A stretch of DNA of 64,000 nucleotides from Candidatus Arcticimaribacter sp. (GTDB lineage Bacteria > Bacteroidota > Bacteroidia > Flavobacteriales > Flavobacteriaceae). The DNA is taken from the NCBI GenBank assembly GCA_002708445.1, contig PAOB01000009.1:3146-67145 (forward strand). The letters are read 5' to 3'. Positions 50,289 to 63,513 of this stretch are shown here, one piece after another. The notes beneath the pieces are model-generated. The model was not told the DNA's origin, made no database searches, and was given only the letters and a program-made list of their open reading frames with translations. Position 1 is the first letter of the stretch. Every line of letters starts with the position of its first letter. The position numbers were made by a program, and so were the translations under genes.

Positions 50289-51044
50289 ATGGTCTCTAAG
50301 CCAAACAATTCCTCACCCAAAAAATCAGTAAATACCACGCGATTAAATAAGTTTATTGCCAATTCAGGAATTTGTTCTCGACGTGAGGCAGATATGTTTA
50401 TTGCAATGGGAATGGTAAAAATAAATGGGAAGATTGTTGTTGAAATGGGATATCAAGTTCAACCTGGTGATGATGTCCGCTACGATGGAAGAAGGATAAT
50501 CTCTGATAAACCGGCTTATGTTTTGTTGAATAAACCGAAAGGTTTTTTAGCTTCGGTAAAGAAAGGAACTTACAAAAAGGATGTTTTAGAGCTTGTCGAA
50601 AATGCAACTTCCTACAGAATAGACCCCGTCAATGCAATGGATCGAACTACTACAGGTTTACTTTTATTTACAAATGATACGGAACTCAAAATCAAATTAA
50701 GAAAGCCATCTCGTAGCCTTTCAAAGATTTTTCAAGTTGTCCTCGATAAGAATTTAGTTCAAGCTGATCTTGAGAAAATCAGAGCTGGTGTTGTTATCGA
50801 TAAATTTGACAAAATTGAAGTAGATTCGATTAGTTTCATCAAAGGAGAAACCAAACGAAAAGTAGGGGTAGAGCTCTCTACAGAACGTCATCGTGCAATA
50901 TTTCATGTCTTTGAAAAATTAGGTTACAAAGTTGAGCAAGTCGATCGTGTAGTGTACGCTCATCTGACAAAGAAAGAACTACCCAGAGGGAAATGGAGAC
51001 ATTTAAATGAGCGTGAAATAAATTTATTTAAAATGATGAAATAA
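50289..51044 (+). CDS. rRNA pseudouridine synthase (RluB/RsuA family)
   Basis: 251 residues: S4 RNA-binding domain (about 15-75, RLNKFIANSGICSRREADMF) and a RsuA/RluB catalytic domain. The catalytic Asp lies in VNAMDRTTTGLLLFTND near residue 118; the usual GRLD before it reads NAMD, so only the Asp and the TTGLLL part are conserved. Other family motifs (VLLNKPKGFL) are intact. Convergent overlap of 21 bases with the membrane glycosyltransferase gene. Confidence 0.9.
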   Translation: MVSKPNNSSPKKSVNTTRLNKFIANSGICSRREADMFIAMGMVKINGKIVVEMGYQVQPGDDVRYDGRRIISDKPAYVLLNKPKGFLASVKKGTYKKDVLELVENATSYRIDPVNAMDRTTTGLLLFTNDTELKIKLRKPSRSLSKIFQVVLDKNLVQADLEKIRAGVVIDKFDKIEVDSISFIKGETKRKVGVELSTERHRAIFHVFEKLGYKVEQVDRVVYAHLTKKELPRGKWRHLNEREINLFKMMK

Positions 51045-52367
51045 TTTTTTTTTGGTACGAAGTTCATACACAAAAACTCCATAAACGACCCCATACTGAA
51101 GACCAATCAAGTAAAAATTTTCTTTAAAATCAGGATTTCCATAAGTTGCATAACTCAGAACTATTAGACAACTCCAAAACAGAGGGTAGGTGAAGTTTGT
51201 GAAGACCGAAAGACCTACCAATGTAACCACATACCAGGGGTGAACTGTAGTGGAAATAAAAAAATAACAACTTAAAGTAAGTAACATTCCATTAATTACC
51301 GAAACAGCTGTTTTGTTTGATCTAAAAAAGCTGAATGCAGCAACGATAGCTAAAACAATAAAAGGTGTAACCTTCCCCAATTTTCTGATGATATTGTATC
51401 CCTTTATTTCATAACCAATTTCTCGTATGATGTAATAAATGCTTCCATTAAACTCAAAGCGATTGAACCAAAGGTTGAGGGTTTTGAGATAATGAACAAT
51501 GCTGTTTTCTGTAATAAAGAATGGAATAAAAATTACTCCTAATAAAACGAAACAGTAAAGTCCAAAAAGCATGCTTTTTTTGGGTCTTAAATAACGCCAC
51601 AATACAGGTAAAATGATTAAAGGAATCAATTTAGTGGCAACCGAAACAACCATTGAAATTGCTCCAAGTTTGATTTTATTATGAGAAAAAATCAAATACA
51701 GTCCTGTAATAAAAAAGAATACCATCACACCTTCCCAATGAAGATTTCCAGTCAATTCAAGGATAATCAATGGGTTTAGAAAGTAATAAGCAATTCTTTT
51801 TTTGTTAAGGTTTAAAAAATCTAATAACTTAATTCCAATCCAAAAAATTCCAAGATCAGCTAAAATCAAGAGGATGCGGATACAAATTACATTGAAAAGG
51901 ATTGAATTTCCTCCAATTGTATTGGCCAAAAAAAATCCAATTTGATTTATGGGTGGATAATTAGAATAATGCTTAGCACTCAAACTGCCCATACCCTCAT
52001 AGAGTTTTTGACTGAATTCAGTTGGTATTGCTGAGGTTTGGTTTAATAAATCTGGGGTAGATTCATATGGATTTATTCCGTTAGAAAGAAGCATCCCATC
52101 CCAAATAAATCGGAAAAAATCTTGTGAAAGGAGAGGAGTTGACTCAAAAAAGATGAGTCGAAATAAAATTCCAAGTTCGAGAATTCTTCTCAAGCTTGGG
52201 TTTTGATGAATTATTAAATAACTGCCTAGAAAGAGTGAAGCATAAACAGGAATTAAGATTGAACTTTGGTTTCTGTCGATTTCATAACCCATAAAATAAT
52301 AACCAAGGATACAGCCGAATAGAAGTACGACATTGAGGATTTTCAGAAAGCTTCCTCGATCAATCAT
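51024..52367 (-). CDS. GT-C type polyprenyl-phosphate-dependent mannosyltransferase-like protein
   Basis: 447 residues with about eleven TM helices. The first extracytoplasmic loop holds the acidic motif SQDFFRFIWDGMLLSNGINP typical of DUF2029/MptA-like GT-C enzymes, followed by YPPINQIGFF. Such enzymes take sugars from polyprenyl phosphates outside the membrane. Its 3' end overlaps rluB convergently, and its start codon shares one base with the next gene's stop, in a three-glycosyltransferase unit (51024-54567). Confidence 0.8.
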   Translation of the reverse strand: MIDRGSFLKILNVVLLFGCILGYYFMGYEIDRNQSSILIPVYASLFLGSYLIIHQNPSLRRILELGILFRLIFFESTPLLSQDFFRFIWDGMLLSNGINPYESTPDLLNQTSAIPTEFSQKLYEGMGSLSAKHYSNYPPINQIGFFLANTIGGNSILFNVICIRILLILADLGIFWIGIKLLDFLNLNKKRIAYYFLNPLIILELTGNLHWEGVMVFFFITGLYLIFSHNKIKLGAISMVVSVATKLIPLIILPVLWRYLRPKKSMLFGLYCFVLLGVIFIPFFITENSIVHYLKTLNLWFNRFEFNGSIYYIIREIGYEIKGYNIIRKLGKVTPFIVLAIVAAFSFFRSNKTAVSVINGMLLTLSCYFFISTTVHPWYVVTLVGLSVFTNFTYPLFWSCLIVLSYATYGNPDFKENFYLIGLQYGVVYGVFVYELRTKKKLFHHFK

Positions 52368-53869
52368 TAGCCTTGAGTACGATAAGAATTTACAAATACA
52401 AATCCAAAACCAATAAAGAGCATTAAATGAAAAGGGAATAACCCCATATCGCCCGAATCACCAACGATAATTCCACTGTACATACCAAATAAAAAATATA
52501 AAGTTAATAAGCCTTCGAAAATTGTGTTTTTAGAAACTTTTTTTCGGATGTACTTATTTTTTTTCCAAGAGTCATTCATAGTAAAAATATTGAATTTTGG
52601 AGTACGAATAAAATCACTTTTTTTGCTTCGATGACCCTGTAAAACAGCAAGTGTATTGTGAAAAGAGAATCCCATAGCAACGGTGTAAAAGGTGAAAAAT
52701 ATTTTAATGTATTCTAAAAAGTTAAGTAATCCACCCCCTTTTGAATATCTGTAAAGAACCCAATAGCAACCAAAAAATATAAGAGTACTCACAATAAAAA
52801 AACTCGACAAATCAAAGTACAAACTGAGGTGGCCCCATTCATTTTTGATGTAAAGCATAGGAATACTTAATACGCCAACAAAAAAAACATTCAAGAACAT
52901 GGTGCTGTTGAGCAGATGAAGAATAGAATGTACTTTGGTAATTAGAGGAATGTTTTTAGCTCTAATTACATTTTTTACCATTTTCTGAAAATTCTCAGCT
53001 CCACCTTTATTCCATCTAAATTGTTGAGAGCGAATAGCACTCATAACTATTGGTAATTCTGAAGGAGTTTCTACATCTTCTAAATATTTGAATTTCCAGT
53101 TTTTTAGTTGTGCTCTGTAACTCAAATCTAAATCCTCGGTCAAGGTATCTCCTTCCCAATTCCCAGCATCAATTATGCAAGTCTTTCTCCAGATTCCCGC
53201 AGTTCCATTGAAATTCATAAAGTGGTTCTTACTGTTTCTTCCAACTTGTTCTAAAGTGAAATGTGCATCTAGTGCAAAGGCTTGAATTTGAGTAAGAATG
53301 GAATAATTTCTATTGATATGCGACCAACGTGTTTGAACAACTCCTATTTTCTTGTTTTCAAAATGAGGAACAGTGCGTAAAAGCCAGTCAGATTTTGGGA
53401 GAAAGTCAGCATCAAAAATTGCAATAAACTCTCCTTTGGCAACTTCTAAACCCTCTTTAAGGGCTCCAGCTTTAAAACCAATTCGTTTTTCTCTTCTAAT
53501 TTGAATAATGTCTAGCCCTCCTTTTTTTAGTTTTTCTACAAGATTTTGGGTCAGTTTAACCGATTCATCTGTAGAATCATCGAGTACCTGAATTTCTAAT
53601 TTGGTTCTGGGGTATTCGATTAAATTGATACATTCTAAGAGGCGTTCAATTACATAGAGTTCATTGAAAACAGGAAGTTGAATAGTGACAAAGGGAACAG
53701 CGTCTGAATCACTTAAATCAAGTTTCAATGGAATTTCTTTTTTCTTTTTGTGTTGAATGTAGTTCCAAAGAAGATTGAGCTGAGAGAGGCTGTACAACAA
53801 AACTAGAATTAATGATATCGAATATAAAAACATCAAAAAAACCGATAAATACAACCAGGTATTTTCCAT
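52367..53869 (-). CDS. Cellulose-synthase-like family 2 glycosyltransferase
   Basis: 500 residues: TM helix at the N terminus, cytoplasmic GT-A domain with VTIQLPVFNE, VLDDSTDES, AIFDADFLPKSDWLL (DxD), TLTEDLDLSYRAQ and the QxxRW motif in RSQQFRWNKGGAENF, then four TM helices. This is the processive-type layout of CESA-like enzymes (CsbB/CslA-like). Belongs to the three-gene glycosyltransferase unit; product unknown. Confidence 0.9.
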   Translation of the reverse strand: MENTWLYLSVFLMFLYSISLILVLLYSLSQLNLLWNYIQHKKKKEIPLKLDLSDSDAVPFVTIQLPVFNELYVIERLLECINLIEYPRTKLEIQVLDDSTDESVKLTQNLVEKLKKGGLDIIQIRREKRIGFKAGALKEGLEVAKGEFIAIFDADFLPKSDWLLRTVPHFENKKIGVVQTRWSHINRNYSILTQIQAFALDAHFTLEQVGRNSKNHFMNFNGTAGIWRKTCIIDAGNWEGDTLTEDLDLSYRAQLKNWKFKYLEDVETPSELPIVMSAIRSQQFRWNKGGAENFQKMVKNVIRAKNIPLITKVHSILHLLNSTMFLNVFFVGVLSIPMLYIKNEWGHLSLYFDLSSFFIVSTLIFFGCYWVLYRYSKGGGLLNFLEYIKIFFTFYTVAMGFSFHNTLAVLQGHRSKKSDFIRTPKFNIFTMNDSWKKNKYIRKKVSKNTIFEGLLTLYFLFGMYSGIIVGDSGDMGLFPFHLMLFIGFGFVFVNSYRTQG

Positions 53870-53874
53870 TTAGG

Positions 53875-54567
53875 TTATTTAAAAAAGTTGTGTTTGAAAA
53901 TCCACCAAATTATTTTTATGCCGGCAAAGATAGTTCCTTTTAAAGTTCCAGACACTTTTGAAACTCCAATTCTTTGTCTGTAATTCACTTCAACTTCTTG
54001 GTATGAAATCTTTTTGCGTAAAATTTTCAATTGCATCTCAATAGTCCAACCGTAAGTCTTATCGGTCATATTAAGATCTATTAATGTATTCCAACGAATT
54101 GCCCTAAAAGGCCCCAGATCGGTAAAGCTTGATCCGTATAAAATTTTCATAAGGAAACACGCCAACCAATTACCAAAAACTTGTTGTGGTGTCATGGAAC
54201 CAGATTCTCTTTTTTCGGCTACTCGTGCCCCCAATACGAAATCAAATTTACCATCTCGTATGGGAGTAACAAGGGATATTAGTTCTTCGGGGAAGTCAGA
54301 ATAATCCCCATCCAAAAAAACAACAATATCCGGTGTTTCCTTTAGGTTTTTGAGATAATCTATGCCTTTTAGGCAAGCATATCCATATCCTTTTCTGTAT
54401 TCTGAAAGAACAGTTGCACCAGCTAATCGAGCTACTTCGGCAGTATTATCATTCGAATTATTATCGATAACTATGATCTCATCAACAATTTTTGGAAGGT
54501 CATTTATTACGTGGCTTACGGATTCTTGTTCATTAAAAGCTGGTATGATAACTTTGATTTGTTGCAT
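53875..54567 (-). CDS. Family 2 glycosyltransferase (Dpm1/UgtP-like)
   Basis: 230 residues, soluble GT-A: VIIPAFNEQESVSHVI, VIDNNSNDNTAEVA, FLDGDYSDFPEEL (DxD) and TDLGPFRAIRWNTL, which resembles polyprenyl-phosphate glycosyltransferases that supply donors to GT-C enzymes such as the one at 51024. A C-terminal hydrophobic helix (GTIFAGIKIIWWIFKH) may anchor it. First of the three-gene unit, five bases before the cellulose-synthase-like gene. Confidence 0.88.
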   Translation of the reverse strand: MQQIKVIIPAFNEQESVSHVINDLPKIVDEIIVIDNNSNDNTAEVARLAGATVLSEYRKGYGYACLKGIDYLKNLKETPDIVVFLDGDYSDFPEELISLVTPIRDGKFDFVLGARVAEKRESGSMTPQQVFGNWLACFLMKILYGSSFTDLGPFRAIRWNTLIDLNMTDKTYGWTIEMQLKILRKKISYQEVEVNYRQRIGVSKVSGTLKGTIFAGIKIIWWIFKHNFFK

Positions 54568-54643: not shown

Positions 54644-56206
54644 TTATTTAATTGTATTTCCCAAGGGAAATTCTGGAGAAAAAATTCTATTTTCCAAGGG
54701 TCCATTTTCTAATTTCAAAACCCCTCTGGGACAAACAGCAGAACACACCCCGCAACCAACACAAGAGGAACGAACTATGTTCTGTCCTTTTTGAGCGTAT
54801 GCACGAACATCAATTCCCATTTCACAATAGGTTGAACAATTTCCACAAGAAATACATTGTCCTCCGTTTGTAGTAATTCTATACCTGGATTTGAAACGCT
54901 GAATTAAACCTAAATATGCAGCTAAAGGACATCCAAAACGACACCACACCCTGTTTCCAAAAATTGGATAAAATCCAGTACCAATAACACCGGCAAAAAC
55001 TGAACCAATAAGAAAGCCATAGATGTTTTGAATGGTTTGTGTTTTAATACCGATAACATTTTGTGTTCCCGAAAAATAAGAATACAAGGTCAATCCAGTC
55101 ATGACAATAGAAAAGAGTAAAACACTATGAACCATCCACCGTTCCAATTTCCATGCTCCAATTGATTTATTTGATAGGTGCCTAAAAGGGTCCCCTAAAG
55201 TTTCTGCAAGTCCACCACAACCACAAACCCAAGAACAATACCACCTTTTCCCAAAGAAATAGACCATTATGGGAACAATTACAAGGGTAAGCACAATTCC
55301 CCAAACAAGAATAAATAAACCAAACCCTCCACTTGAAATTAAGCTGTTTAAATTCCAACTAAAGAAAAAGTCATAATCTAAAGGAAAGGCATTTTTGAAG
55401 TCATACCAAGGTTTATCAAATCGAACTAAAATTTCAGGAATTAAAAAGGCAAATACAACTTGGAAAAACAAAACGGAGGTCGTTCTTAATATTTGGTACT
55501 TATTGTTTCTGTATTTAATGTACATGCGGATCGCCATAACGATCATTACAACGCAATAGAGAAATCCATACAAAAACCATTGACTGGCAAGATTTCCACT
55601 AATGCTTTGGCTGATGGGATCTACAATAAATGTCCAGTTTACAATGTAATCTGGAAAGAAATACAACAGTACGTAAAAAGCTACTAAAAACAAAAAGACA
55701 AACCACCCCAAAAATCCTCTATTGGTTGAAGAGTTGAAGTAGATACCATTATTTTTTATTCCAGGTGGCCCCAAAACAATTACGTTTGGCAGAATGTAGA
55801 GCAAAGACCCTAAAATTCCAAGCCCAAAAGTTAAGAGCCAAAACAAAGATTTATTTTCTTTAACAGCTCCTTTTGCTGCTATTTTGGCAATTTCAAAAGA
55901 CAAACTGTGGGGTTTTTCCCAGATGATCTTCTTCCATTCTCTGTTTTTTTTATGGATTTTATTTGATTCCTCAACGGCAGTTATTATTGTTGAAGAAAAT
56001 GAAAAAGGTTCTGTAAACTCTTTGTCTACAAGATTTGTATTTATGGAATTAATAAACAACTCGCTATGGATTCCTTTGGCATCCAATATGCTTTTAAATT
56101 CTTTTGAATTTAACTTGTAATTTCCAAGTAAAATTAAAGTACAGAACAAGCCTAGACCAATTAAAAAAACACCTAAACCAATTTTTTGTAATAATTTCAT
56201 ATTCAT
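54644..56206 (-). CDS. Membrane-bound 4Fe-4S protein (NapH/NosR/CcoG-like)
   Basis: 520 residues. About eight TM helices (first at 10-30), cytoplasmic Cys motifs WCSWVCGCGG and VWCRFGCPL between helices, then a C-terminal two-cluster ferredoxin domain: CISCGNCSTYC and CVGCGVCSAVC. These resemble electron-transfer subunits like NosR and NapH that pass electrons across the membrane. The ATG overlaps the stop of the flavin oxidoreductase by four bases, so the two form a redox pair. Confidence 0.88.
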   Translation of the reverse strand: MNMKLLQKIGLGVFLIGLGLFCTLILLGNYKLNSKEFKSILDAKGIHSELFINSINTNLVDKEFTEPFSFSSTIITAVEESNKIHKKNREWKKIIWEKPHSLSFEIAKIAAKGAVKENKSLFWLLTFGLGILGSLLYILPNVIVLGPPGIKNNGIYFNSSTNRGFLGWFVFLFLVAFYVLLYFFPDYIVNWTFIVDPISQSISGNLASQWFLYGFLYCVVMIVMAIRMYIKYRNNKYQILRTTSVLFFQVVFAFLIPEILVRFDKPWYDFKNAFPLDYDFFFSWNLNSLISSGGFGLFILVWGIVLTLVIVPIMVYFFGKRWYCSWVCGCGGLAETLGDPFRHLSNKSIGAWKLERWMVHSVLLFSIVMTGLTLYSYFSGTQNVIGIKTQTIQNIYGFLIGSVFAGVIGTGFYPIFGNRVWCRFGCPLAAYLGLIQRFKSRYRITTNGGQCISCGNCSTYCEMGIDVRAYAQKGQNIVRSSCVGCGVCSAVCPRGVLKLENGPLENRIFSPEFPLGNTIK

Positions 56207-57561
56207 GGCATTATGTTTTTGAATATTACTTTCCAGCTTTTCTTTTTGAGTTTAATTTCGGTATTAAATTCTTTATTAAATTTCTGGAGAATTTCTTCTT
56301 CAAAAGATTCGAAAAATTCAGGATCAAAATTGCAATTAGCTAGCTGTTCAATTACATAGAAAATTGATTTTTTTTCGTAAAGCATTTGATCAAATAGTTC
56401 ATGTCGCATTCTAATTCCAAAGGTATTGATTCCTAAAAACTGCTTAGTATTTTGATCGTATGCAATGGTTATTGCAACGTTTTCAATGGGATGTTTCCAA
56501 TGAAAATGTTTTTCGAAATTTTCGGTTTGAGCCGCAACAAGCCCATAGGTTTGATATTCGATATCGAAAAATTTAGCACTATTAAACCAATGTCCAGGGC
56601 GATAGGCTTTTTTATTTCCTGTTAGAGTTTGCGCTAGTGTTTCTCCCATCATTCTACCCGTGTACCATACCGCCTCAATTGGTCTTCTTCCAACTTGGGG
56701 TTCTTGCTGTTCTGAACAGTCACCAATTGCATAAATTGAAGTTTGATTTGTTTCGAGGTATTTGTTTACAAGAATACCTCGATTGGTTGCAATGTCTGTG
56801 TTTTTTAAAAAATCAATATTGGGTTTCACGCCTGCTGTAAGTCCTACAAACTGACAGCTGATAATTTCTCCAGAATCTGTTCGAATTGCTTTTACCCGAC
56901 CAGTTTTATCTTCTATTATTTCACTCAAATTGGTACTGAGTCTCAAGTCAATTCCGTGCTTTAGTAGGTGTTGATTAATTAACTCTGATTCCCCTTTTGG
57001 TAAAACGTTGTTCCAAAAACTATTTTCTCTAACCAAGAAAGTTACTTTTTTCCCTCTAGAATGAAGCATTTCTGCTAATTCTACACCAATAAGCCCCCCA
57101 CCAACAATAACAGCTTCATTAGTTGTAGCACTGAAATCTTCAAGACTGTCCAGATCTTGTTTAGAATAGAAACCTTGAACACCTGTTAAGTTTTCACCGG
57201 GCCAACCAAATTTATTTGGTAAAGAACCTGTAGCAATAACAAGACTATCATAAGAGAGTATGGATTCATCAGAAAGAGTAATTTTTTTTTCTTTTGGATT
57301 TATGTGAGTTACGGTTCCTTGAAGTAAGTCTAGTTTGTTTTTTTTCCAAAAGTTTCTTTCATAGGGTTGAGTATCTTCCCATCGTAAATGCCCCATATAA
57401 ACATACATTAATGCAGTCCGTGAGAAAAAATATGGAGTCTCTTTGGAAATTATCAATAGGGGTTTCGTTGAATTTTTTCTGAAATGCCGAGCAAAAGTAA
57501 CACCTGAAATTCCATTCCCGACAACAATAATTGGGGGGGCATCCATCTTTATTATTTTCAT
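56203..57561 (-). CDS. NAD(P)/FAD-dependent oxidoreductase
   Basis: 452 residues of the pyridine-nucleotide-disulfide oxidoreductase type. FAD loop IIVVGNGISGVTFARHF (about residues 11-27), NAD loop AVIVGGGLIGVELAEMLHSR near residue 150, second FAD motif SIYAIGDCSE near 270. No CxxxxC active disulfide is present, so it resembles NADH-type reductases rather than thiol reductases. Starts at ATG 57561 or at a second ATG at 57546 (MDAPP). Coupled to the Fe-S membrane protein, to which it could feed electrons. Confidence 0.9.
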   Translation of the reverse strand: MKIIKMDAPPIIVVGNGISGVTFARHFRKNSTKPLLIISKETPYFFSRTALMYVYMGHLRWEDTQPYERNFWKKNKLDLLQGTVTHINPKEKKITLSDESILSYDSLVIATGSLPNKFGWPGENLTGVQGFYSKQDLDSLEDFSATTNEAVIVGGGLIGVELAEMLHSRGKKVTFLVRENSFWNNVLPKGESELINQHLLKHGIDLRLSTNLSEIIEDKTGRVKAIRTDSGEIISCQFVGLTAGVKPNIDFLKNTDIATNRGILVNKYLETNQTSIYAIGDCSEQQEPQVGRRPIEAVWYTGRMMGETLAQTLTGNKKAYRPGHWFNSAKFFDIEYQTYGLVAAQTENFEKHFHWKHPIENVAITIAYDQNTKQFLGINTFGIRMRHELFDQMLYEKKSIFYVIEQLANCNFDPEFFESFEEEILQKFNKEFNTEIKLKKKSWKVIFKNIMP

Positions 57562-57688: not shown

Positions 57689-58135
57689 ATGGAAAACGAA
57701 AAAAAATGCGTCTGTTTAAAAATACTTTTAGATGTAAATAAAGAGCGAATCTGGAAAGCTCTTACAGATCCTAGTCTGACCGAAAAACACATGTACAATT
57801 GCCAACTGCATTCCTCTTGTGAAATAAATAGTGATGCACTCTGGAAACAAAAAAATGAAGATGAAACATTTACAACACATGAAGAAGCAAAGGTGTTTGA
57901 GTAAAGCCCATACAACAAGCTTCGTTTTTTGATTTTTCATAACTCAGATCAGTATGATATCAAAGAGTCAGAACTAAACTTTACCCTTGAAGATCAATCT
58001 ACAGGAGTTTTATTGAAGATTGAGCAGGGGAATTTTCCTCAAACTCCAGAGGGTAAACAACTCTTTGAAGAATGTTTAGCGGGCTGGAACTTTGTTAGTG
58101 AAGATCTAATAACTAGCATAAAAGAGCTAACCTAG
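57689..58135 (+). pseudogene. SRPBCC/AHSA1-like gene with an in-frame stop
   Basis: One frame reads MENEKKCVCLKILLDVNKER, IWKALTDPSLTEKHMY, then a TAA at 57902-57904, and continues in the same frame with SPYNKLRFLIFHNSDQYDIK to TPEGKQLFEECLAGWNFVSE and a stop at 58135. Both halves fit the AHSA1/START helix-grip fold (N-terminal I-W-x-A-L-T-D-P; C-terminal G-W-x-x-x-x-x-x-L). A single nonsense codon interrupts it; the remaining frame is clean. About 148 codons in total, the family size. Confidence 0.78.
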
Positions 58136-58292: not shown

Positions 58293-58985
58293 CTATTTCA
58301 CAAAATTTGAATAGTATTGATTAAGCGTGGTTGGGGATCTCCCAACATATCTTAAAAGATGAATCATAAAGAAGTGAAATTGCAAACGAAAGACACCGTT
58401 ATCCTCAAAACGACGAGCAGAAGTTTTTACCTCTTTCGGTAAAACACAAAATAAAGTTTCCTTGTAAATTCTGTCGATCAGCTCACCATCCTCACAAACC
58501 AAATATTCTTCATTGAAACCCTCAAGAGATTCAAAAAACTTTTTTTTGATGAATAAAGACTGATCTCCACCCCTGCAAAACCGATTGTTAAATCGACTGG
58601 CAAAAGAAGCCAATTGCAGGCTCAAATGAGAGCTTAAAAATTTCAGCCGAAAAGAACCTGCTTTGAATCCTTGTTTAAATGCTTCATATATGATTTTGTC
58701 AAAACCATATGGAGGAATGGTGTCCGCATGGATAAAGTACAAAAAATCAGATGAGGCCATTTCAGCTCCCAAGTTTTGCTGTCTTGCCCTACCTTTTTTG
58801 GTTTGAATTACAGAATAGTCTTCTTTTTTTCTTAAAAACTCATAGCTTCCATCAGAACTCCCTCCATCAACAAAAATGATTTCATTTTCAAAAATCATAT
58901 TTTTTTTTAGAGCAGTCAACAATCCTTCTAGTTGATCTATTTCATTTAGAATGGGTATGATTATCGAAAGGTATGGTTTATTCAT
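58293..58985 (-). CDS. Arsenosugar-associated family 2 glycosyltransferase (TIGR04283-type)
   Basis: 230 residues. GT-A motifs ISIIIPILNEIDQLEGLLTA, IIFVDGGSSDGSYEFL, YFIHADTIPPYGFD (DxD-like), and GGDQSLFIKKKFFESLEGFN. It matches the transferase 2 subfamily that travels with the rSAM/seleno-domain ArsS. Last gene of the seven-gene arsenosugar operon; its start overlaps the DUF547 3' end by eight bases. Acceptor unknown. Confidence 0.86.
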   Translation of the reverse strand: MNKPYLSIIIPILNEIDQLEGLLTALKKNMIFENEIIFVDGGSSDGSYEFLRKKEDYSVIQTKKGRARQQNLGAEMASSDFLYFIHADTIPPYGFDKIIYEAFKQGFKAGSFRLKFLSSHLSLQLASFASRFNNRFCRGGDQSLFIKKKFFESLEGFNEEYLVCEDGELIDRIYKETLFCVLPKEVKTSARRFEDNGVFRLQFHFFMIHLLRYVGRSPTTLNQYYSNFVK

Positions 58986-59703
58986 TCAAACTCCAATCGT
59001 ATTTTTTGTAAGTAATTTCAGCTTGGTTATCAAATTCTTTATGCGAATATTTTTGAATAAAAGTGATTCTCTCTTTTTTTGATCCAAAGTCTTTGCTAAA
59101 CCATAAGAAAATTCTGGAGAGGTTAATTTTGTTGTATTCTATCTGATTTTTGGTTGTATCATTAATAAAAAGTGCTGTAGCAGTTTCTAGTTGTTTTGGG
59201 ATCTTCGAAGCTCTGAAAGCCTCATTGAATAATTGGGGACAAGAAGCGGAGGCGCAGTTTATTGCAAAATGAATCCTCGGTTCATCTATTTTCCGGAGTA
59301 TTTTATGTTCAATATCGTTAAGTGTCAGATTTCCAGTTGGAAGTTTTAGAAAAACACTATCCCAGGGGTCTTTTATGTCTCGAATGCTTTCAACGGGATA
59401 ATTATCAAGAATTAGTTTTACTGTAATTGCGTTGTAAGCATTAATAAAATAAGCCAATGAGTCATTTTTATCAAAATAAGGAGCAGGGGGTTTTCGTTCC
59501 AGAAGTTTGATGTAGTTGTCCAAAGCGGATTGATTTTTTTCCCAGCTTCTGTAATTTACAGTTCCGTTTTTATCCACATACTTTTGTAAAAGGATATTCC
59601 AATTTGAGTGAATTCCTTTGTCTTGAGAAATTATTTTTTTTGATTCTATTTTTGAGAATCCAAATCCAAGGATAAGCGATGTAATGAGGAGTAGGTTTTT
59701 CAT
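58978..59703 (-). CDS. DUF547 domain protein
   Basis: 241 residues with an N-terminal signal (1-17). The DUF547 core shows LAYFINAYNAITVKLIL, SVFLKLPTGNLTLNDIEH and HFAINCASASCPQLFNEAF; the conserved Cys and His look like a papain-like or transglutaminase-like catalytic pair, though no activity is established to my knowledge. Predicted to be exported. Nine bases after arsM in the operon; its role in arsenic metabolism is unknown. Confidence 0.85.
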   Translation of the reverse strand: MKNLLLITSLILGFGFSKIESKKIISQDKGIHSNWNILLQKYVDKNGTVNYRSWEKNQSALDNYIKLLERKPPAPYFDKNDSLAYFINAYNAITVKLILDNYPVESIRDIKDPWDSVFLKLPTGNLTLNDIEHKILRKIDEPRIHFAINCASASCPQLFNEAFRASKIPKQLETATALFINDTTKNQIEYNKINLSRIFLWFSKDFGSKKERITFIQKYSHKEFDNQAEITYKKYDWSLNE

Positions 59704-59712
59704 TTTTTTAGT

Positions 59713-60681
59713 TTAACAACAGCCTCCACCATCATAGTGATGGGTTGATTCGCTGATGAAGATTTCATCGTTATTAATATTTTTCAAAGCTTGAGCAGTT
59801 TTATCACAAATTGCCAAGGGCTGGTTTTGAAGTAAAACGTGGCCTTTTTTGTCATCAAAATAAGGTTCATTGCCGTAATAAATAGCGGATTTTCCAGTAA
59901 AAACACATGGCCCGTCATCGGGCATTGGGTCTTTGATGGCACAAACCTCCACACTTTCAATAAAAATTCTTTCTTTGGTAGGGTAGTGTTTTGGGTCTAA
60001 TATTCGATAAGGTCTTTTTGCTCTGATTTCAATAGTTCCAAAACCGACATCGGTTAACATTTTTACATAATCAGCTAATGGAATTGATCCCGAAAGGCAA
60101 AGCGCTCTCAATCGTTTGTCGTCCCGCAAGGTTTTGTCCAATGGTTGTTCGCAAATAGGATCACTCATTACTAGTCTTCCATTGGGTTTTATTACCCGAT
60201 ACATTTCTTCAAGAGCTTTTTTTAGTTCTTCCATTTTGAAGATGTTAAACAAACAATTTTGCGCAGCAACATCAATGCTTTTGTCCTCAACAGGAAGGTT
60301 TAAAGCATCCCCTTTTTTGAGGGTTACAAAATCAGATTTGAACCATTCGTTTTGCTCCTCTGCTAGCAGGAAATTCTTTCTTGAAGCTTCGAGCATTTCA
60401 TCAACTACATCAATCCCAATAACTCCCTCTTTTTGTCTTGAAAAGTATGAAAATTGAAGTAACTCCATTCCACCTCCTACTCCCACATACAATATTTTAG
60501 GGTTGTTAATCAAATCTCTAGGATGAACTGTTGACCCACATCCGTAATTCATTTCCTGCATTATTGTAGGAATTTTGAGTCCCGGGAATTGCCAAATGGG
60601 AGTTGTAGTGCAACATAAACCAACATCTGGAGTAAGTGCAGCTTCTTTGTAAACATCTTTGGTGACTTCTAAATAGTGCAT
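59713..60681 (-). CDS. arsM: Arsenosugar-type arsenite methyltransferase ArsM
   Basis: SAM-dependent methylation of As(III). 322 residues. N-terminal Cys motif GLCCTTTPIWQFPGL (Cys23, Cys24) and MNYGCGSTVHP (Cys48), SAM motif I YVGVGGGMELLQ at 65-76, then Cys143 (QNCLFN), Cys177 (DPICEQP) and Cys195 (RALCLSG) as candidate arsenic ligands. A C-terminal extension ends YDGGGCC, a vicinal Cys pair. This is the branch found beside ArsS rather than stand-alone ArsM. Between the DUF547 and phosphorylase genes, with gaps of 9 and 10 bases. Confidence 0.93.
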   Translation of the reverse strand: MHYLEVTKDVYKEAALTPDVGLCCTTTPIWQFPGLKIPTIMQEMNYGCGSTVHPRDLINNPKILYVGVGGGMELLQFSYFSRQKEGVIGIDVVDEMLEASRKNFLLAEEQNEWFKSDFVTLKKGDALNLPVEDKSIDVAAQNCLFNIFKMEELKKALEEMYRVIKPNGRLVMSDPICEQPLDKTLRDDKRLRALCLSGSIPLADYVKMLTDVGFGTIEIRAKRPYRILDPKHYPTKERIFIESVEVCAIKDPMPDDGPCVFTGKSAIYYGNEPYFDDKKGHVLLQNQPLAICDKTAQALKNINNDEIFISESTHHYDGGGCC

Positions 60682-60691
60682 TTTGAAAAAT

Positions 60692-61513
60692 TTAGATTAA
60701 AGAAATTAATTGTTTTACTAATACTATCAAAGATTGTTCCGCTTTTTTGGCCATCTCCATAATATTAGGAATATCTATTGGTTGTAGGTTGTCGGGATCA
60801 CATACATCAGTTAAGACAGAAAAAGCGATACAATCGATTCCAAGTTGGTTTGCAACTATTACCTCCGGAACCGTTGACATTCCGACTGCGTCGGCACCAA
60901 TTATTTTCAAATAACGATATTCTGCCTTAGTTTCTAGTTGCGGTCCCACAACAGCTGCATACACTCCTTTATGAAGCGTTATTTTTTTTGTAGCTGCAAT
61001 TTTTATGGCTTTATCTTTTAATGAGCGATCATAAGGTTCACTCATATCAACAAAACGATTCCCAAGAGAATCAATCCCTTTTCCAGCTAAAGGCGATCCA
61101 CCTTGTAGGTTAATGTGATCTTCAATCAACATAATTTCACCTTTATCAAAATTTAAATTTATTGCTCCAGCAGCATTACTGATAATTAGTTTTTTTACCC
61201 CAAGTGAATTCATAATCCTTACAGGATATGTTATTTCAAAAAAATCATATCCCTCATAAAGGTGAAAGCGACCCTGAAAGACGAGTACTTTCTTTGAATT
61301 TAAAGAACCGTAAATTAGTTTTCCAGTATGGTATTCTACGGTAGCCGATTGAAAATGAGGGATGGCTTCAAAAGGAATTTCTTTTTCAATTTCAAGGTGG
61401 TCAATCAAATTACCCAATCCTGTGCCTAAAATAATGCCAATTGCACCTGTTTCAACACCTTGCTTATTAAGGTAGTTTGAACTTTCTTCAATTTTTTGGA
61501 TCATTGTTTTCAT
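60692..61513 (-). CDS. Purine nucleoside phosphorylase (trimeric PNP/MTAP family)
   Basis: 273 residues. Family motifs: IGIILGTGLGNLIDHL phosphate loop, VLVFQGRFHLYEGYD, LIISNAAGAIN, VGPQLETKAEYRYLK (base-binding Glu) and GADAVGMSTVPEVIVANQLG. In FSVLTDVCDPDN the residue aligned with human PNP Asn243 is Asp, which in human PNP engineering and in MTAP favours 6-aminopurines such as adenine. That would suit removal of adenine from an arsenical adenosine made by ArsS, but Asp here is also common in ordinary Bacteroidota PNPs. Starts within the upstream stop (ATGA). Confidence 0.9.
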   Translation of the reverse strand: MKTMIQKIEESSNYLNKQGVETGAIGIILGTGLGNLIDHLEIEKEIPFEAIPHFQSATVEYHTGKLIYGSLNSKKVLVFQGRFHLYEGYDFFEITYPVRIMNSLGVKKLIISNAAGAINLNFDKGEIMLIEDHINLQGGSPLAGKGIDSLGNRFVDMSEPYDRSLKDKAIKIAATKKITLHKGVYAAVVGPQLETKAEYRYLKIIGADAVGMSTVPEVIVANQLGIDCIAFSVLTDVCDPDNLQPIDIPNIMEMAKKAEQSLIVLVKQLISLI

Positions 61514-62115
61514 TGGTCTAAGAGTTGTAAAAGTTCAGGATTTGCTTTGAGGTCTTCAAAATAATCTACATCGTTTTTGGTTTCTAATTGAACTAAGGTA
61601 TTGTTTTTAAAATCGGTTAGAGTATCGTCCAAGACCGAGGAAGTTCCCCAATTTTTTCCATCAAACACTTGGGGGATCCATTTTGAAAGACCTAATAAAT
61701 AATACCCCCCATCGGTTGCAGGTCCAATTACACCGTCTTTATTTTTTAGAGCTGCAAAGGCCTTGTTGATGATTTGAGTATCTAAATTCCAAAGATCGGT
61801 TCCAATTACTATGATTCGATTAAAACCATCATCAAAACCCTTTTTGAAAGCATTAGCCATCCTTTCTCCCAAACAGTTTCCTTCTTGAATACTTTTATCA
61901 GAAACACTACCTTCCCAAATGTCTTGATCATCAACAAAATCTGAATAATAAAGACTCTTATGCACATTTACTTTTTCTACAACTTCGGATGTTTTACTTA
62001 CCAACTTATTGAAAATAAAAAGTGCTTTTTCATCCCCAATTGTCTTTGCCAATCGGGTCTTTACCTTTCCCAACTGTGGGTTTTTTGTAAAGATCAGTAG
62101 TAGTTTTTTTCTCAT
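61510..62115 (-). CDS. Arsenosugar-associated glycosyltransferase (TIGR04282-type)
   Basis: 201 residues of the nucleotidyltransferase/GT-A fold, DUF2064 relative. KKLLLIFTKNPQLGKVKTRLA at the N terminus is the nucleotide-binding signature, followed by GFNRIIVIGTDLWNLDTQII and DGVIGPATDGGYYLLGL. This is the transferase 1 subfamily that accompanies ArsS. Five bases after arsS and overlapping the phosphorylase by four bases. Confidence 0.88.
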   Translation of the reverse strand: MRKKLLLIFTKNPQLGKVKTRLAKTIGDEKALFIFNKLVSKTSEVVEKVNVHKSLYYSDFVDDQDIWEGSVSDKSIQEGNCLGERMANAFKKGFDDGFNRIIVIGTDLWNLDTQIINKAFAALKNKDGVIGPATDGGYYLLGLSKWIPQVFDGKNWGTSSVLDDTLTDFKNNTLVQLETKNDVDYFEDLKANPELLQLLDQ

Positions 62116-62120
62116 AAAAG

Positions 62121-63176
62121 CTAAGCAATACTTCCTTGACAGCTACTCCCAGCTCCAGCGGTACATCCATAACAATGTTGTGAAAGGATTATGAAACGAT
62201 TCTTGAGTTCATCTTGATTAAACTCACTTATGTGCCTAGAGGGAATATCAACTTTGAGGTTTAACATTTGGTTGAAATCACAATCAAATAAAAAGCCTTC
62301 CCAACTAACCGAAAGAGTGTTCGTACACATTACGTTTTCTAAAGCTGAGGGGTTGAAAGCATCAACTAAAGTATGCATGTATTCTTCATAGTTTTCTGAG
62401 GCGATAAGATAGTCTAGAAATCGACTGATTGGGAGATTTGTTATTGTAAACAATTGATTGAATTTAACACCAAAATCCTCAAATAAAGCTTTTTTGAAAT
62501 CGGTTTCTAGTGCTGCTTGATTCCCAGGTAAAAATGCACCAGAGGGATTGTAAACAAGATCCAATTGAAGATCGCTTTCTAAGACTCCATATCCAACTTT
62601 ATTAAGCATTTGAAGTGCTTTTATGGATGATTCAAAAACTCCATTGCCTCGTTGACGGTCTGTTTTTTCTCTTTTGTAAAACGGTAAGGATGAAATGACA
62701 TGAACTTTATGTTTTGCAAAAAAAGCTGGAAGATCATTGTACTTTTTGTTTGCCAAAAGGATCGTTAGATTAGATCTAACAATAATTTCTTCAACATCAG
62801 TTTTTCGAAGTTCTTCAACAAACCATCTAAATTCTGGATGCATCTCGGGTGCTCCACCAGTAAGGTCAATTGTTCTAATTTTTGTGTTTTTTATAACCTT
62901 CAAGATTTGTTCCATGGTTTTGTAGGTCATAATTTCTTTTCGATCAGGACCAGCATCAACATGACAATGCGCACATACTTGATTACACATGTACCCTACG
63001 TTGAGTTGTAAAATTTCTAGTTTTTTGGGTCGAATCGGAGGAAGGTTATTGGAAGCTATTTTTTTTTTAAAAGTAGGCAAACTCCCATCTTTGAAAATCC
63101 CGTTAGCTAATATTTCAAGCTGTTTTTCGGTTTTAGAAAGTGAATTATTTTGAGCTTTAAGTGATTTTGTTTTCAT
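62121..63176 (-). CDS. arsS: Arsenosugar biosynthesis radical SAM enzyme ArsS
   Basis: Radical SAM enzyme that couples dimethylarsenite to the SAM-derived 5'-deoxyadenosyl group to give a dimethylarsinoyl-adenosine in the studied systems. 351 residues. CxxxCxxC cluster at Cys64, Cys68 and Cys71 (NVGYMCNQVCAHCHVDAGPD), GxxP-type TGGAPEMHPEFRW, and the C-terminal domain with HCYGCTAGAGSSCQG (Cys about 335, 338, 346). Some relatives carry selenocysteine in that motif; here it is all Cys and no TGA is read through. One base after the peroxidase-like gene. Confidence 0.94.
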   Translation of the reverse strand: MKTKSLKAQNNSLSKTEKQLEILANGIFKDGSLPTFKKKIASNNLPPIRPKKLEILQLNVGYMCNQVCAHCHVDAGPDRKEIMTYKTMEQILKVIKNTKIRTIDLTGGAPEMHPEFRWFVEELRKTDVEEIIVRSNLTILLANKKYNDLPAFFAKHKVHVISSLPFYKREKTDRQRGNGVFESSIKALQMLNKVGYGVLESDLQLDLVYNPSGAFLPGNQAALETDFKKALFEDFGVKFNQLFTITNLPISRFLDYLIASENYEEYMHTLVDAFNPSALENVMCTNTLSVSWEGFLFDCDFNQMLNLKVDIPSRHISEFNQDELKNRFIILSQHCYGCTAGAGSSCQGSIA

Positions 63177-63177
63177 A

Positions 63178-63513
63178 CTACATGCTCAATTGATCATGTC
63201 GATTCATCATTTGAACTCCGTGTACCAGTGCAGCACCAGCTTTTATGGCTGCACCAACATGAACTGCCTCCATCATATCTTCTTTTACAATCCCTCTTTG
63301 TAAACAATCTTTAGTGTATGCGTCAATACAATAAGGACATTGAACCACATGAGACACTGCTAATGCTATTAATGATTTCTCTCGCTTTGTCAATGAGCCC
63401 TTTTCAAAAACAGAATTGTAATAATCAAAAAATTTTGCTCCAAGATCTTCATTCCATTCTGATATTGAGCCAAACTTCTTAAGATCCTCTGGTTGATAAT
63501 AATTTTTTTTCAT
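63178..63513 (-). CDS. Arsenosugar-associated AhpD/carboxymuconolactone decarboxylase-like protein
   Basis: 111 residues of the AhpD fold. The redox motif is VVQCPYCIDAYTKDCLQRG, with the CxxC pair (Cys about 59 and 62) and the downstream His absent from the usual CxxCxxxH; the third Cys (DCLQ) is extra. AhpD proteins reduce peroxides or disulfides, so a role in keeping arsenic trivalent or regenerating ArsS/ArsM thiols is plausible inference. First gene of the operon; upstream TATCTTTA is one base off the minus-10 consensus. Confidence 0.88.
   Translation of the reverse strand: MKKNYYQPEDLKKFGSISEWNEDLGAKFFDYYNSVFEKGSLTKREKSLIALAVSHVVQCPYCIDAYTKDCLQRGIVKEDMMEAVHVGAAIKAGAALVHGVQMMNRHDQLSM

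Follow-up and report, generated by a model that had tools for sequence, protein, structure and literature searches.

How does the product of the enzyme ArsS become an arsenosugar? The steps catalysed by ArsM and ArsS are established for these families (Xue 2019 and Cheng 2021, as cited in passages of PMC8552651 and PMC12159101), and PMC4632732 summarises a proposal in which a dimethylarsinoyl-adenosine intermediate then undergoes 'glycosidation'. A literature search, with subscription papers outside its reach, returned no genes assigned to the 'glycosidation' step and nothing relevant on purine nucleoside phosphorylase (PNP) or MTAP together with arsenosugars. We address the question with a 64,000-nucleotide stretch of Candidatus Arcticimaribacter sp. 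(contig PAOB01000009.1; the whole stretch is hereafter the window), which holds a seven-gene operon with a PNP gene between those for ArsS and ArsM. Judging from sequence comparisons, it is probable that this is an arsenosugar operon carrying its own 5'-deoxyadenosine-type phosphorylase, with the full route proposed below, and quite probable that the ArsS product undergoes phosphorolysis.

An arsenosugar operon of seven genes

Seven open reading frames (ORFs) lie on the minus strand from 58293 to 63513. Their transcription order is TIGR04169, ArsS, TIGR04282, PNP, ArsM, DUF547 and TIGR04283, with successive junctions of +1, +5, -4, +10, +9 and -8 bases. A first-pass annotation of this DNA had described seven genes in the same orientation, separated or overlapping by no more than 10 bases, and had assigned them to arsenosugar biosynthesis; the ORFs and the hidden Markov model family matches confirm the layout, and the curated families bear out the assignment. 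Six of the seven proteins pass a curated NCBIfam cut-off, the DUF547 protein having a Pfam match only, and the curated names already say arsenosugar biosynthesis for five (ArsM, ArsS, TIGR04169, TIGR04282 and TIGR04283). Operons of this kind were already known; the novelty lies in the evidence for the phosphorylase and the DUF547 protein.

The first gene (63178..63513) encodes an AhpD/CMD-like, peroxidase-like protein of 111 amino acids with a CxxC motif. It had been thought undescribed, but it scores 188.2 bits against a cut-off of 120 on TIGR04169, which NCBIfam already names arsenosugar biosynthesis-associated. ArsS (62121..63176; 351 amino acids; TIGR04167, 446 bits against 300) is the radical S-adenosylmethionine (SAM) enzyme that transfers 5'-deoxyadenosyl onto methylated arsenic, and its CxxxCxxC and C-terminal Cys motifs are invariant in the ArsS alignment. 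ArsM (59713..60681; 322 amino acids; NF038099, 567.6 bits against 400) is an arsenosugar-type arsenite methyltransferase, scoring 88 bits against a cut-off of 500 on the arsinothricin-cluster (arsQML) model NF040538.

No arsR, arsB/acr3 or arsC lies inside the operon. Over the host genome we found no Acr3 above the cut-off, but the assembly is a 1.56 Mb draft, 65% complete, so that absence is weak; contigs other than the operon's hold one ArsR-type helix-turn-helix protein and one ArsC/Spx-family match. The lack of arsR, arsB and arsC reported earlier thus stands for this operon and fails as a basis for deciding between use and detoxification of arsenic. Sigma-70 and terminator scans gave background levels only, and an Rfam search of the window found nothing besides a tRNA.

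Linkage of the phosphorylase to ArsS

Does the phosphorylase belong with ArsS? We surveyed 19-kb regions around ArsS, taking 12 genomes from the window's own genus, 36 from other genera of its family and 31 from Bacteroidota beyond the family. Within the genus, AhpD, TIGR04282, PNP, ArsM, DUF547 and a flavin adenine dinucleotide (FAD) oxidoreductase were present at all 12 loci and TIGR04283 at 10. The 36 family loci had AhpD at 35, TIGR04282 at 34 (an upper bound, as some weak matches of 40-55 bits are probably other proteins), PNP at 29, DUF547 and ArsM at 23 each, TIGR04283 at 18 and the FAD oxidoreductase at 11. Among the 31 loci of other Bacteroidota the counts were 27 for AhpD, 13 for TIGR04282, 8 for TIGR04283, 6 for DUF547, 3 for ArsM and 0 for PNP. 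The gene order of the operon recurs at the same-genus loci examined, TIGR04283 being in place at 10 of the 12, and in many other genera. Chance synteny was rejected: flanking gene families reach at most 9/36, against 18-35/36 for the operon genes, leaving aside antisense ORFs inside operon genes and excepting one rhodanese-like gene. The survey of ArsS neighbourhoods that had been suggested for this locus thus bears out the association for PNP, DUF547 and AhpD.

The rhodanese-like gene (NF045521, 'rhoda_near_glyco') lies between ArsS and TIGR04282 at 23 of the 36 family loci (for example L103, 7685-8191). It is not at that position in the window's genus, and looks like a further operon member in other genera.

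The PNP gene is most closely tied to TIGR04282. In the window the two overlap by 4 bases, and at 35 of 36 PNP-bearing, ArsS-positive family loci TIGR04282 stands beside PNP on its strand, mostly overlapping or within 31 bases; overlap lengths are approximate because ORF starts were set mechanically. Where ArsS is located elsewhere (G029, G044 and G050; L181-L183), PNP is still found together with TIGR04282, ArsM and TIGR04283.

An active site suited to 5'-substituted adenosines

The operon PNP (60692..61513, minus strand; 273 amino acids) scores 330.3 bits on NF006054 against a cut-off of 218. In bovine PNP numbering, with the sequence verified against PDB chains, it has Asp at 243 and Ile at 257. 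In mammalian PNP, His257 contacts the nucleoside 5'-hydroxyl and Asn243 selects 6-oxopurines. Position 257 is Ile, Val or Leu in all ArsS-linked PNPs and His in mammalian and ordinary flavobacterial PNPs. The equivalent residue of human MTAP is Val233, and the alignment gives the window's PNP the same pattern as MTAP Asp220 and Val233. Such a pair suits purines that have an amino group at position 6 and something other than hydroxyl at 5', and so fits 5'-substituted adenosines. Asp243 was tried as a marker of arsenosugar operons and rejected: PNPs of the order without a link to ArsS carry it too.

In family terms the enzyme falls between models. It scores just below the cut-off of the inosine/guanosine-specific PNPH model TIGR01700 (292.8 against 293.35 bits; an Asp/His-type PNP from G043 scores 332.9) and has Asp and Ile in place of the PNPH residues Asn243 and His257, while on the MTAP model TIGR01694 it reaches 83.5 against 274.85 bits. 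By analogy, it would work like MTAP without being a member of that family. Its closest solved relatives, 4lna and 4m1e, have Asp at 243 and Leu at 257 and are described in the PDB just as purine nucleoside phosphorylases; we know of no arsenic context for either.

In the tree, the Asp/hydrophobic PNPs group in a single clade of 57 sequences with support 0.81. They occur in 27/27 ArsS-positive and 9/30 ArsS-negative typed genomes, the figures within the family being 26/26 and 9/12. Strict specificity of this type for ArsS was rejected, since nine ArsS-negative genomes of the family also have it. Of the 30 ArsS-positive genomes from other Bacteroidota families, 29 carry an Asp/hydrophobic PNP, most often together with an Asn/His paralogue, and TIGR01694 MTAP is absent from all 30. 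Hence this type of PNP is probably what the phylum has in place of MTAP, relocated to the operon in the Flavobacteriaceae.

A different phosphorylase beside ArsS in proteobacteria

A scan of named genomes gave 80 ArsS loci, essentially all proteobacterial. At 18 of these an MTAP-family phosphorylase lay within 10 kb of ArsS, where genome size and gene number predict about 0.63; common ancestry among the loci inflates this significance, although the arrangements differ. In Microbulbifer the MTAP gene is 6 bases upstream of ArsS on the same strand; in Psychrobacter it is downstream on the opposite strand. NCBI annotation shows the same ArsS and MTAP linkage in plasmid clusters of Acinetobacter portensis and Burkholderia glumae.

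Like the window's operon, the proteobacterial clusters (Acinetobacter portensis, Psychrobacter, Microbulbifer, Burkholderia glumae) combine ArsS with a PF01048 phosphorylase, most of them with TIGR04283 and TIGR04282 and several with DUF547. They differ in having an MTAP- rather than a PNP-family phosphorylase, another gene order and, commonly, a TVP38/FAD fusion protein. That two PF01048 enzyme families, PNP and MTAP, stand beside ArsS in two phyla amounts to convergent recruitment and is independent evidence. Because of this recruitment, removal of adenine by phosphorolysis appears to be part of the pathway.

Is the phosphorylase a housekeeping enzyme?

Perhaps the operon PNP is instead a housekeeping phosphorylase for 5'-methylthioadenosine (MTA), 5'-deoxyadenosine or purine nucleosides that clears adenosine by-products of SAM enzymes, arsenosugars being made otherwise? 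In the 19 genomes of the window's genus (g1; G000-G018; completeness up to 95%), the operon PNP is the sole PF01048 protein found, and these small genomes yielded neither a separate MTA nucleosidase nor a DeoD or uridine phosphorylase. Since no other PF01048 protein was found, the operon PNP probably also does the housekeeping there, if any is needed. In Psychrobacter and Microbulbifer, too, the PF01048 gene near ArsS is the only one of the genome, and Asp/hydrophobic PNPs occur without ArsS.

Genus g68 speaks differently. There, an extra Asp/Ile PNP lies near ArsS in 3/3 ArsS-positive genomes (at 1.3, 8.2 and 8.2 kb), alongside a normal Asp/His PNP, and in 0/14 ArsS-negative genomes (Fisher p = 0.0015, with common descent of the three positive genomes possible). 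The enzyme is thus an additional copy found only alongside ArsS. Moreover, the PNP gene is coupled to TIGR04282 and not to SAM-recycling genes, and several proteobacterial genomes retain a second PF01048 gene elsewhere. We consider a purely housekeeping enzyme rather unlikely. The proposal that the PNP frees adenine from the ArsS product, made when the operon was first annotated, gains support from the Flavobacteriales linkage, the proteobacterial recruitment of MTAP, the within-genus test and the loss of His257, all of them read from sequence.

TIGR04282 as a candidate nucleotidyltransferase

The TIGR04282 protein (61510..62115, minus strand; 201 amino acids; 194.8 bits against 134) bears the NCBIfam name of a glycosyltransferase, and TIGR04283 (58293..58985, minus strand; 230 amino acids; TIGR04283, 211.7 bits against 182; PF00535) has a glycosyltransferase family 2 (GT2) fold, with a proposed role in transfer of arsenoribose to an aglycone. 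Do both, then, add sugars to an arsenoriboside, with no nucleotide-activated arsenoribose? That was the earlier assumption, and the curated names favor it; nucleotidyltransferases have the same fold as GT-A glycosyltransferases, and the structural matches of TIGR04282 include mannosylglycerate synthase and ArnC.

For TIGR04282, however, the assumption is probably wrong. The predicted structure (predicted local distance difference test [pLDDT] 90) matches the uncharacterised relative 3cgx best and then 3-phosphoglycerate guanylyltransferase with its product (7p97; template modelling [TM] score 0.79, E 1.7e-10). Rv2983, a CofC-like protein, a probable nucleotidyltransferase, IspD, CMP-Kdo synthetase and GlmU also match; the two glycosyltransferases rank lower, at a TM score of about 0.5. 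The model thus has the fold of a CofC/FbiD-type nucleotidyltransferase (7p97, and 6bwg at E 8e-10), though the sequence stays below the corresponding models (TIGR03552, 25.3 against 105 bits; PF01983, 21.8 against 22). The top characterised structural matches and the sole other sequence-family match, CofC, are nucleotidyltransferases, and the phosphorylase product would be a sugar-1-phosphate, which requires activation before transfer. Two glycosyltransferases are on this evidence unlikely. From its fold and its coupling to the phosphorylase gene, TIGR04282 more likely acts as a nucleotidyltransferase on the phosphorylase product, making nucleoside diphosphate (NDP)-arsenoribose, than as a glycosyltransferase.

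A proposed route and the evidence against it

The route would run as follows. ArsM dimethylates arsenite and ArsS adds 5'-deoxyadenosyl to give 5'-deoxy-5'-dimethylarsinoyl-adenosine, if both keep the known chemistry of their families. PNP with phosphate would then remove adenine, leaving 5-deoxy-5-dimethylarsinoyl-ribose-1-phosphate, as context and active-site residues suggest. TIGR04282 with a nucleoside triphosphate would activate this arsenoribose-1-phosphate to NDP-arsenoribose, a step indicated by fold and gene coupling, and the GT2 enzyme TIGR04283 may move the arsenoribosyl group onto glycerol or a glycerolipid. If that enzyme inverts and its donor is an alpha-NDP sugar, the outcome would be a beta-riboside, as in natural arsenosugars. 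At a guess, the AhpD-like protein and the linked FAD oxidoreductase maintain a suitable redox state of arsenic or thiols, and the DUF547 protein works on the far side of the membrane from the cytoplasm, where it may help to handle or anchor the product.

The first three steps (ArsM, ArsS, phosphorylase) are fairly likely. NDP activation and transfer by TIGR04283 come close to an even call, falling a little on the doubtful side. Only tentatively, and with rather more doubt than trust, do we suggest that the complete missing 'glycosidation' step is found here, with an MTAP-like phosphorylase, TIGR04282 as a new nucleotidyltransferase, transfer by TIGR04283 and different phosphorylases recruited in two phyla.

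Several observations weigh against this route. About three-quarters of the proteobacterial ArsS loci have no phosphorylase nearby, and in this survey PNP lies near ArsS only in the window's family; at the 31 loci of other Bacteroidota it is missing, the enzyme being unlinked in those genomes. Because Asp243 is common to non-ArsS PNPs, position 257 alone discriminates within the order. The Asp/hydrophobic PNP is not exclusive to arsenic, since it is found in the nine ArsS-negative family genomes and is unlinked across the phylum; it may simply be a general MTA or 5'-deoxyadenosine phosphorylase. NCBI, again, names TIGR04282 a glycosyltransferase. Finally, genomes G019, G036 and G055 (L172, L174 and L179) have TIGR04282-PNP-(DUF547)-TIGR04283 together but lack an intact ArsS and a linked ArsM; the module may there serve a purpose other than arsenic or be decaying. 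That this module is a general pathway for 5-deoxy or 5-methylthio ribose glycosides, which ArsM and ArsS joined in some lineages, is nonetheless improbable: just these three genomes keep it, whole or in part, without ArsS and ArsM, the ArsS remnant of G036, interrupted by a stop, lets decay after ArsS loss explain at least one case, and elsewhere TIGR04282 and TIGR04283 track ArsS across two phyla.

A probably exported DUF547 protein

The DUF547 gene (58978..59703, minus strand; 241 amino acids; PF04784, 80 bits against 27) encodes a protein whose sequence starts with a probable signal peptide. Besides the Bacteroidota loci above, DUF547 occurs at 13 of the 80 scanned loci and at plasmid loci of Acinetobacter, Burkholderia, Cupriavidus (where neighbours were called by phmmer) and Hymenobacter. 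The protein thus appears to be exported and to recur across phyla. Its invariant residues H145, N149, C150 and C155 suggest an active site, or metalloid or thiol chemistry, outside the cytoplasm. A Foldseek search of the PDB with its predicted model (pLDDT 82) gave no usable fold match (best E 4.3).

Neighbouring genes

Just downstream of the operon on the same strand are two genes that the first-pass annotation missed. One encodes an FAD-dependent pyridine nucleotide-disulphide oxidoreductase (56203..57561; PF07992, 171.6 bits) and forms a separate block here; its recurrence near ArsS is given above (12/12 same-genus and 11/36 other-genus family loci). The other, overlapping it by 4 bases, encodes a NapH-like membrane 4Fe-4S (ferredoxin) protein (54644..56206; NapH/MauN, 67 bits, below the cut-off of 213). 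A membrane-protein cluster (440-amino-acid ORF) in the matching position, taken as the NapH-like gene, is present at 12/12 genus and 9/36 family loci, and its association with the operon is weaker than the others.

Directly downstream of this pair, at 51024-54567 on the minus strand, is a tandem of an AglJ/DPM1-like GT2, a cellulose synthase-like GT2 and an MptA/B-like membrane glycosyltransferase, possibly a lipid-linked glycan pathway. Between, and antisense to, the TIGR04283 and FAD oxidoreductase genes, a plus-strand frame of 148 codons (57689-58135) has one in-frame TAA at codon 72 and then stays in frame to its stop. This appears to be a gene disrupted not long ago; by eye it resembles SRPBCC proteins, and Pfam gives no match. 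A homologous ORF is present at seven same-genus loci.

Outside the family, three further families recur near ArsS (L200, 8405-9580; L209, 2072-2677; L196, 7963-8982; others): a SelD-associated-type FAD oxidoreductase at 14 loci, an extracytoplasmic function (ECF) sigma factor at 20, and a third family at 13-18, related by eye to the metallophosphoesterase-like protein of L104.

Relation to known pathways

The Synechocystis-type ArsM/ArsS pathway has the same curated ArsM and ArsS families as the window and the same first two steps. At a Pseudanabaena locus, arsM and arsS lie with genes for TVP38 proteins and an FAD oxidoreductase; unlike the window, this locus has no linked phosphorylase, DUF547, TIGR04282 or TIGR04283 within 8 kb. 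In the HpnH/HpnG hopanoid pathway, a radical SAM enzyme transfers 5'-deoxyadenosyl to an acceptor and a PF01048 phosphorylase then removes adenine. The ArsS-PNP logic of the window resembles this, with a different acceptor; ArsS and the related PNPs match TIGR03470 and TIGR03468 weakly or not at all and are not members of HpnH/HpnG.

Arsenosugars are a major arsenic form in marine food webs. The curated name of TIGR04282, 'glycosyltransferase', may need changing, and this operon, with the related loci, supplies a named candidate enzyme for every chemical step.

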